From contig JACPMG010000025.1 in assembly GCA_016186095.1 (NCBI GenBank), positions 1 through 34,415 on the forward strand: a stretch of DNA of 34,415 bases. The letters run 5' to 3'. This document shows positions 6,214 to 16,403 of the stretch, one piece after another (within the stretch, counting starts at the first letter, position 1; every line of letters begins with the position of its first letter). Position numbers and translations under genes: made by a program. The stretch is from Candidatus Sungiibacteriota bacterium (GTDB taxonomy: Bacteria > Patescibacteriota > Minisyncoccia > Sungbacterales > HO2-52-23). The notes beneath the pieces are model-generated. The model saw nothing but the letters and a program-made list of their open reading frames with translations. It did no database searches and was not told the origin of the DNA.

Positions 6214-6241
6214 TCTATCTTTTTATGATAAATTGCGTGAC

Positions 6242-7516
6242 ATGAGAATCCTTTCCATTGAAACCAGCTGTGATGAGACCGCAATCGCGATTGCGGAATT
6301 TTCCGGTCCCCAAAAATCGCCAAAGATTAAAATCCTATCAAACATCGTCTCCTCACAAGTAAAACTCCACGCCAAATTCGGAGGAGTGGTGCCGAATCTG
6401 GCGAAAAGAGAGCATCAAAAAAATCTCCCCCTTGTTTTACTGCGCGCGCTAAAGGAAGGAAGATTTTCAATTTCTAAACCCCAATTTCTAATTTCTAATC
6501 AAATCCAAAAATCCCTGCCTGGCCGGCAGGCAGGCAAAGTTCAAAAGATAGAAAAAATACTGGGACGGGAAGCTGAATTATTGAAACAATTCAAAAAAAG
6601 AATCGTACCTCTCGCGCCCCCAAAACTTGACGCCATCGCCGTAACCTACGGCCCCGGTCTCGCGCCCGCACTTTGGGCGGGAGTGAATTTTGCGCGCGCG
6701 CTCGCGTATCTTTGGGGCACACCCCTAATTCCTGTAAACCACATGGCCGGGCATTTGTATTCAGCTTTACTGCAAGCATCCCCACGTCATTCTGAGCGAA
6801 GCGAAGAATCTAATAGATCCTTCGGGCTTCGCCCTCAGGATGACCGCGGGCAATACGATATTGTCAATGTCAGCTTTCCAGCCCTCGCCCTGCTGGTCAG
6901 CGGCGGGCACACCGAATTGGTACTCATGCGCGGTCACGGAAAATTTAAGATCCTGGGCGAGACCTTGGACGATGCCGCCGGAGAGGCGTTTGACAAAGTG
7001 GCGCGGATTTTGGGATTGGGATATCCGGGAGGTCCCGCCCTTTCCGCCTTAGCGGAAAGGAGTAACCAGTTACTAGTTACTAGTAACAAAATAAAGCTAC
7101 CCCGGCCGATGTTAAATTCAAAAGATTATAATTTTTCTTTTTCCGGCCTTAAAACCGCAGTGCTTTATTTGACGCGCGATCTGGGACTGCAAAAAACAAA
7201 AAAGCTTCGGCCCCTCATCGCCAAAGAATTTCAAGATGCCGTGGTAGAGGTTTTAGTTTCAAAAACAATCCGCGCCGCCAAAGAATATAAAGCGAAAACC
7301 ATACTCCTCGGCGGCGGAGTTGCGGCCAATAAACTACTCCGTGAACGCCTTGTAGATACCTTAAAAAAGGGAATGCCCCTTGCCCTTTGCTATTTACCCC
7401 TAGCTTCGCTGACCGGTGACAACGCGCTTATGATCGCGGTAACGGCACGTTTTACAGGAAAGAAAAAGGCCCTCGACAAAGTCGGGGCAGATGCGAATGT
7501 AAAACTGGGAGACTAA
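6242..7516 (+). CDS. tsaD: tRNA N6-adenosine threonylcarbamoyltransferase, with three repeat-derived insertions
   Basis: MRILSIETSCDETAIAI, NHMAGHLYS, LLVSGGHTELVLM, DDAAGEAFDKVARILGLGYPGGP, FSFSGLKTAVLY. Confidence 0.95.
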   Translation: MRILSIETSCDETAIAIAEFSGPQKSPKIKILSNIVSSQVKLHAKFGGVVPNLAKREHQKNLPLVLLRALKEGRFSISKPQFLISNQIQKSLPGRQAGKVQKIEKILGREAELLKQFKKRIVPLAPPKLDAIAVTYGPGLAPALWAGVNFARALAYLWGTPLIPVNHMAGHLYSALLQASPRHSERSEESNRSFGLRPQDDRGQYDIVNVSFPALALLVSGGHTELVLMRGHGKFKILGETLDDAAGEAFDKVARILGLGYPGGPALSALAERSNQLLVTSNKIKLPRPMLNSKDYNFSFSGLKTAVLYLTRDLGLQKTKKLRPLIAKEFQDAVVEVLVSKTIRAAKEYKAKTILLGGGVAANKLLRERLVDTLKKGMPLALCYLPLASLTGDNALMIAVTARFTGKKKALDKVGADANVKLGD

Positions 7517-15711: not shown

Positions 15712-15783
15712 GCCCTCGTGGTGAAATGGATATCACGCTTGCCTTCGAAGCAAGTATTGGGGGTTCGAATCCCTCCGAGGGCG
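15712..15783 (+). tRNA. tRNA-Arg (TCG)
   Basis: GCCCTCG/CGAGGGC, anticodon arm CTTGC-CTTCGAA-GCAAG, T-arm GGGGG-TTCGAAT-CCCTC; no encoded CCA. Confidence 0.88.
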
Positions 15784-15906
15784 ACACAACTGCTTGTGTC
15801 GCGTGAGGGATGAGAAGACCACAGCGTTGCGCGACGAGCTTGAGGCGAGGAGCGCCGCGAGGGGCGGCCTGCGACTGAGCGAGCGGAAGCTCGCGAGAGT
15901 TGTAGG

Positions 15907-15924
15907 CGAATCCCTCCGAGGGCG
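15907..15924 (+). repeat. 18-nt direct repeat of the tRNA-Arg 3' end
   Basis: CGAATCCCTCCGAGGGCG identical to 15766-15783. Confidence 0.85.
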
Positions 15925-15988: not shown

Positions 15989-16154
15989 GTTTCCATAATT
16001 TAAAAACCCGCAGATGATGCGAGCTGTGCGTCTCCCTTTTATTCCTATTTTCAAGGTGGTCTATAACGCCCTCATAAAATTGACTGAAAAACAAGGCGGG
16101 AATAAAATCACGTCATCCGCCCATAGCTCAATTGACAGAGTCCCGATGCTGTGT

Positions 16155-16227
16155 CCGTCCCTAGCTCAATTGGTAGAGCAGCTCCCTCTTAAGGAGACGG
16201 TTCCGAGTTCGAGTCTCGGGGGACGGA
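16155..16227 (+). tRNA. tRNA-Lys (CTT)
   Basis: CCGTCCC/GGGACGG, D-arm GCTC-AATTGGTA-GAGC, anticodon arm GCTCC-CTCTTAA-GGAGA, T-arm CCGAG-TTCGAGT-CTCGG. Confidence 0.9.
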
Positions 16228-16295
16228 CACAGCATCGAGGATCCTCGACTTCTAAAATGAGTTATTTCAAATTAAAGTCGGGCCGCTCCCTCTTT

Positions 16296-16324
16296 CAGCC
16301 AGAGGCTGATCCGCCTCGGGCGGA
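16296..16324. repeat. Double-hairpin repeat in the anticodon-loop region of the interrupted tRNA
   Basis: CAGCC-AGA-GGCTG-A-TCCGCC-TCG-GGCGGA. Confidence 0.7.
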
Positions 16325-16403
16325 AAGGACAAGGTTCCAGGTTCAACTCCTGGTGGGCGGATTTCCGAAAGAAAACTAAAGCTTGATAAAATAAAAGCCG
16401 GGT

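Follow-up and report, generated by a model that had tools for sequence, protein, structure and literature searches.

The tRNA-Lys Locus

The window analysed here, a stretch of 34,415 nucleotides, is one contig of a draft genome of a Candidatus Sungiibacteriota bacterium (680 kb in 32 contigs). The gene order tRNA-Ala(CGC), tRNA-Pro(CGG), CCA-adding enzyme, tRNA-Arg(TCG), and tRNA-Lys(CTT), followed by rpsO and pnp, is largely kept at many Parcubacteria loci, and the tRNA-Lys neighbourhood of the window additionally contains a ClpP-like protease. The closest relatives of the PNPase are found in Candidatus Sungbacteria and Parcubacteria MAGs, with 63–71% identity over the best segments. The sequence sampled comprises all of G003, a complete, single-contig relative, and the tRNA regions of other genomes, both Sungbacteria-like and other Parcubacteria. 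G000 denotes the window's own genome and G013 a genome from a different family.

At the tRNA-Lys position, an intact tRNA-Lys(CTT) is enclosed in a second, interrupted tRNA gene (Table 1). The inner gene, read at 16155–16227 in the original prediction, is recovered there by both ARAGORN and Rfam RF00005 (62.2 bits). The outer gene is interrupted by inserts of 142 and 30 nt; in this form it is called by neither ARAGORN nor Rfam, and its joined pieces, 73 nt long, are called tRNA-Lys(CTT) by ARAGORN. This call and the gapless alignment with the G011 gene described below bear out the proposal of a Lys-type gene split twice, with the intact tRNA in its first insert. The 7 bp of the outer acceptor stem (CCGCCCA/TGGGCGG) are perfectly complementary, as had been claimed, and GCTCCCTCTT indeed occurs both at 16285–16294 and at 16181–16190. 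The alignment with G011 shifts two of the predicted boundaries: insert 1, placed at 16141–16284, has the correct start but ends at 16282, while insert 2, placed at 16296–16324, has the correct end but starts at 16295. When rejoined, the outer gene reads GAG|CCGCTCCC across nt 24 and 25 and CTCTT|AAGGAC across nt 36 and 37.

Table 1. Features of the nested tRNA-Lys locus in window coordinates.
Feature	Position	Strand	Remarks
Outer tRNA-Lys(CTT), 5' part	16117–16140	+	Acceptor 5' strand and D-arm, nt 1–24; D-loop GG replaced by GA; gapless alignment to the G011 gene
Insert 1, two-hairpin palindromic element (TCCCGAT..core..TCGGG)	16141–16282	+	Between outer nt 24 and 25; inner tRNA is hairpin 1; ends from the G011 alignment
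Extended stem, 5' strand	16144–16154	+	11 bp prolonging the inner acceptor; pairs with 16227–16237; from the fold
Inner intact tRNA-Lys(CTT)	16155–16227	+	ARAGORN, Rfam RF00005
Extended stem, 3' strand	16227–16237	+	From the fold
Core palindrome of the element, TCGAGGATCCTCGA	16235–16248	.	29 occurrences among 23 genomes of the order, confined to 8 of them; one copy in the own genome
Second hairpin of the element (CGACTTC..AAAGTCG)	16246–16280	+	From the fold
Outer tRNA, middle part	16283–16294	+	nt 25–36, 5' side of the anticodon arm with anticodon CTT; G011 alignment
Insert 2, dispersed double palindrome TCAGCCAGAGGCTGATCCGCCTCGGGCGGA	16295–16324	.	Between the anticodon and nt 37; repeats genome-wide; G011 alignment
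Outer tRNA, 3' part	16325–16361	+	3' strand of the anticodon arm, T-arm, acceptor 3' strand; G011 alignment

The 11 flanking base pairs and the acceptor stem of the inner tRNA together form an 18-bp helix (16144–16161 with 16220–16237). The core palindrome, allowing at most one mismatch, is expected 0.01 times by chance in the window. The composite RNA folds into a cloverleaf within a cloverleaf (z −7.0, equalled by 0 of 200 shuffles), and the outer acceptor, D-stem, and T-arm remain intact in this fold. The two tRNAs are identical at 58 of 73 positions. The inner one shares 72 of 73 positions with its counterpart in G003 and 64 of 73 with a tRNA-Lys(TTT) of G008. The long helix, the core palindrome, the second hairpin, and the genome-wide repetition of insert 2 go beyond the original prediction, as do the ancestral status of the outer gene, the dispersed element with a tRNA arm, and the recurrence of the arrangement, which are discussed below.

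Other insertions are present in the window. A TsaD-like reading frame (6233–7516) carries an in-frame insert of palindrome type (RHSERSEESNRSFGLRPQDDRGQ), which resembles the protein-coding palindromes known in other bacteria. In tRNA-Arg(TCG), the last 18 nt (15766–15783) are repeated exactly at 15907–15924, after a 123-nt insert (15784–15906). The same kind of 3'-end repeat, 17–21 nt in length, is found at about ten other tRNAs of relatives (L107, L108, L136, L156, L167, L172, L223, L256, L264, and L266). The elements preceding these repeats measure about 85–170 nt and follow a loose consensus, several of them containing a stretch complementary to the displaced strand of the T-stem. A search with the window copy gave no Rfam match. 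Inserts of this type may belong to an independent structured element with the T-loop as its target and a spare tRNA 3' end as cargo.

Ancestry and State of the Outer Gene

The rejoined outer gene aligns without gaps to the intact, syntenic tRNA-Lys(CTT) of the relative G011 (67 of 73 positions), no base being lost or doubled at the cuts, and the G011 site keeps the neighbouring genes for the CCA enzyme, an exonuclease, and ClpP. In the outgroups, a single plain tRNA-Lys(CTT) occupies the syntenic position. Together, the gapless match and the plain gene in the outgroups identify the outer gene as the ancestral tRNA-Lys(CTT) and the inner gene as the newcomer.

The loss of the conserved GG in the outer D-loop, pointed out in the original prediction, is real, the G011 gene having GG where the window has GA. 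In addition, nt 28 does not pair with nt 42 in the anticodon stem, and the outer gene of the G013 nest lacks everything past the anticodon loop, its 3' half being gone. These three observations agree with the earlier leaning towards decay. The outer gene thus has the marks of a tRNA pseudogene, namely lost conserved features, an intact isoacceptor in the same genome, and a homologous copy that is decaying. It had been suggested that the locus would reduce to a disrupted pseudogene if it were not conserved; this holds for the outer gene but is too coarse for the locus, given that the nesting is recurrent and matched in isoacceptor.

Two known kinds of insert were considered and rejected. A group I or II intron does not fit inserts of 142 and 30 nt, and neither insert contains an intron core matching an Rfam intron family, at the gathering threshold or at E ≤ 5. 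As to an integrative element at a tRNA attachment site, the end of insert 1 does not restore the 3' part of the target: the outer 3' end is not repeated at insert 1, and the inner gene is a complete, different tRNA.

The Palindromic Element and Insert 2

Insert 1 belongs to a dispersed palindromic element of two hairpins, which has the form TCCCGAT-hairpin-ATCGAGGATCCTCGAT-hairpin-ATCGGGA; in the window, one of the hairpins is the tRNA. The core TCGAGGATCCTCGA yielded no occurrence in the reversed control. Fifteen complete copies fit the above form with small variations, and their hairpins vary freely in sequence while complementarity is kept. The preceding base is G in 13 of the 15 copies and the following base C in 12. 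About eight of them, as judged by reading, lie inside tRNA genes or relics (Lys, Pro, Thr, and Glu). The window element is inserted at a G|C step in the D-arm with no target duplication, and the complete copies likewise have none. A genome-wide test for target-site duplications on 92 arm pairs was discarded, as the self-complementary ends confound it. At two nests built by other palindromes, 4-nt repeats were seen by eye (TAAA at the Tyr nest of G003 and TTTA at the Leu nest of G010).

Several copies bear directly on the window. One that is free of tRNA occupies the exact window site (L292, between nt 24 and 25), while in two further families a tRNA-Thr(CGT) forms one arm of the element inside otherwise whole tRNA-Thr(CGT) genes (L311 and L316). 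Comparison of the locus in sister genomes, proposed earlier as a check, shows the nest in G003 and in G013. In G003, identified by searching for the locus in 13 family genomes, the same inner tRNA is nested at the syntenic place. The G013 nest is 86% identical to that of the window over 170 bases, with the same cut, the same altered D-loop, and a closely similar core; the two stems differ by T-A versus G-C, a change seen on both strands. The stems of G000 and G003 are entirely different despite the near identity of the inner tRNAs, and the G000 stem matches the more distant G013, so that horizontal transfer, repeated insertion, or an exchange of stems has to be assumed for the history of the locus.

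The window stem half GATGCTGT finds only chance-level matches in its own genome. Element copies inside one genome have unrelated hairpin arms, which is unusual for copy-and-paste. Of 13 family genomes, 10 encode Y1-domain proteins, most of them about 230 aa long. The palindromes flanking the two Y1 genes of G003 differ from the window element, and no transposase could be tied to it.

The palindrome of insert 2 is common and recurs across the genome. Further broken tRNA-Lys and tRNA-Asn genes (L011, L025, L046, L290, and L291) contain it at the corresponding site.

Recurrence of Nests in Relatives

Nests were searched for around 327 tRNAs from Sungbacteria-like and other Parcubacteria genomes, on condition that a 5' tRNA half lay no more than 250 nt upstream and a 3' half lay downstream, each scoring higher than the 99% level obtained from 300 random stretches, with the reversed topology as the internal control. 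As this detector requires both halves, a loop preference of the targets cannot be read from the nests. The scan flagged 23 nests and 0 in the reversed topology. Two of those flagged (Phe and Gly in L266) are false, both matching one relic, which leaves about 21 credible cases.

The halves match the enclosed tRNA in type. The best isotype of the half is that of the enclosed tRNA in 34 of 45 cases upstream and 47 of 56 downstream, against about 9% expected. Eleven outer genes were rejoined; six gave a definite ARAGORN call, in all six with the anticodon of the inner tRNA, and the other five gave no call or an unclear anticodon. G003 contains nests of Tyr, Asp, Val(TAC), Ile, Met, and Thr, the window's own genome has Cys, Glu, and Thr besides Lys, and two Pro nests and one Arg nest occur in other Parcubacteria. 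In G011, a tRNA-Lys(TTT) lies inside a tRNA-Lys(TTT). Nests of several levels are formed by Ile(GAT) in G003, Lys in G016, and Pro in G019.

An empty site is available for the Cys nest of the window's own genome. Its outer gene, cut at CTG|CAAAA, aligns when rejoined without gaps over the tRNA to the intact tRNA-Cys of G003, which is likewise paired with Leu(TAA). In the window's own genome, the inner tRNA-Cys of the nest (L020, 336–411) ends in an encoded CCA, unlike most tRNAs there, which hints at a foreign source. The Thr(TGT) outer genes of G003 and G010 are near identical by eye while the nests differ; this fits recent independent breaks, and an outer gene under selection would also fit.

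Palindromes other than the window element also form nests in G003, with arms CCCCGTTAGA/TCTAACGGGG and CCCCCACCTATT/AATAGGTGGGGG, and these arms are found elsewhere too, at times enclosing sequence that is not tRNA. Inverted-repeat pairs enclose a whole tRNA in 15 cases in G003, a few of these arms being partly the tRNA's own acceptor stem, compared to 1.5 expected (at most 6 in 500 placements). The density of short palindromes near tRNAs is twice that of other noncoding DNA.

A decayed tRNA-Asn beside an intact one is common to two genera. The broken genes of G000 and G003 (L011 and L046) have palindromes in the anticodon loop and the T-loop, and that of G000 has an additional one in the D-arm. 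G003 also contains a dense array of about 20 tRNAs (G003:C1:439820-442718), nearly all with an encoded CCA, unlike most of the genome, and a smaller cluster of CCA-bearing tRNAs (G003:C1:519291-519987). These clusters are probably derived from mobile elements or phages.

Proposed Replacement Mechanism and Alternatives

In our interpretation, the locus probably results from successive replacements of tRNA genes by tRNAs carried on palindromes. A two-hairpin element with an intact tRNA-Lys(CTT) as one hairpin has cut the ancestral gene between nt 24 and 25. The inner gene would now supply the tRNA, being transcribed through the surroundings of the outer gene, and its product could be freed by the usual nucleases, i.e., RNase P and 3' nucleases, perhaps with RNase III acting on the long stem. 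The outer gene would then be a dead shell that accumulates further insertions. A break in a single-copy tRNA gene is presumably survivable only if the insert supplies the same isoacceptor, in which case selection would leave same-in-same nests, sometimes several deep. In the least certain step, tRNA and palindrome would move as one unit, perhaps by means of a Y1/HUH single-strand transposase like those encoded here. Extended to Parcubacteria at large, functional tRNAs may be arms of mobile palindromes that target tRNA genes, each insertion breaking and rescuing the same isoacceptor, such that essential tRNA genes are repeatedly replaced from within. We put this wider reading forward tentatively, with slightly more doubt than confidence.

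Alternatively, replacement could have taken two steps, a second isoacceptor copy coming first, the old gene then being hit by palindromes, and an intact copy later being moved or recombined into one of them. The tRNA-free element copies in broken tRNA genes, one of them at the identical site (L292), speak for this sequence of events, together with the lack of tRNA in insert 2 and many other palindromes, the palindromes around non-tRNA sequence, and the several insertions gathered by outer genes. On its own it leaves unexplained both the location of the intact copy inside the broken one and the isoacceptor match, and the otherwise whole outer genes of L311 and L316 suggest one recent event; we regard it as unlikely. 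Much lower still is the probability of a tandem duplication in which adjacent copies lost opposite halves and received palindromes independently. Some broken copies do lie beside rather than around the intact one (Asn, L011 and L046), but the 23 flagged nests against none reversed, the gapless rejoining at the cuts, and the mutual complementarity of the stem strands flanking the inner tRNA all argue against it.

It is equally improbable that the outer gene is functional, with the inserts removed from the RNA, the pieces joined, and the inner tRNA as intron content. Its perfect acceptor and T-arm, the ARAGORN call of the joined pieces, and the composite fold would agree with this, as would some outer genes elsewhere that are otherwise perfect, and the original prediction had kept splicing of the folded inserts open. 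That suggestion is not supported in view of the damage to the D-loop (lost G) and anticodon stem (mismatched 28–42 pair), the lack of an Rfam intron family, and the G013 nest, which persists with its outer gene truncated. RtcB, moreover, was found in 0 of 13 family genomes by a search that detected it in 9 of 14 controls, and the intact tRNAs of the complete genome G003 cover the codon set, no isoacceptor depending on an interrupted gene. From these two results it follows that nothing requires spliced outer genes, and a spliced, working outer tRNA is unlikely. An assembly chimera, conceivable for a window taken from a 32-contig draft, has a negligible probability, as the nest is also present in G013, and the single-contig G003 carries the same inner tRNA in a nest at the syntenic position.

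Relation to Known Systems

REPINs have two hairpins per unit. REP and REPIN elements and their RAYT (TnpA-REP, Y1 HUH) transposases represent a known system of short dispersed palindromes (PMC2817692, PMC3116915, PMC8266576). The window element is similarly dispersed, with two hairpins per unit, and the family has the Y1 genes noted above. It differs in that an arm can be a complete and, judging from its sequence, functional tRNA, that the arms vary between copies, and that many copies lie in tRNA genes. Its ends are TCCCGAT/ATCGGGA rather than a GTAG/CGTC-type foot, and the two Y1 genes of G003 do not have it at their flanks as a cognate RAYT would, the palindromes there being different ones. 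Rickettsia palindromic elements are inserted in existing protein genes at conserved places with the frame kept (PMC3767692) and are thus alike in placing palindromes into existing genes, but neither tRNA cargo nor target replacement is described in that work.

Integrative elements at tRNA attachment sites insert with preservation of tRNA function, usually by restoring the 3' end of the target. The present locus shares the insertion into a tRNA gene and the preserved function, but here a complete, separate tRNA replaces the target; the restoring type also exists in these genomes, at tRNA-Arg. Archaeal tRNA genes are known in disrupted, split, and intron-containing forms, and Caldiarchaeum has a tRNA fragment, left behind by a mobile element, close to another gene of the same isoacceptor (PMC4033280, PMC3293823). 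These genes are likewise interrupted, whereas here the host is a bacterium without RtcB, the outer gene decays, and an intact isoacceptor lies inside the broken gene. One review describes bacterial tRNA genes as uniform in structure except for group I and II introns (PMC4033280). A search of the open-access literature for tRNA genes that are nested or interrupted by palindromes yielded only a tRNA-Sec nested in selB (PMC8124441), and no tRNA within a tRNA. The recurrent same-in-same nesting suggests that essential tRNA genes are replaced by a route not described so far.

Such nests mislead annotation and any attempt to find split tRNAs in bacteria. Few genes are less dispensable than those for single-copy tRNAs, and in these genomes they look like sites of repeated landing, where the old gene is left as a shell enclosing the new one. 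Every shell is a layer of replacement history, and the shells make tRNA gene turnover and the movement of palindromic repeats in these reduced genomes directly testable.
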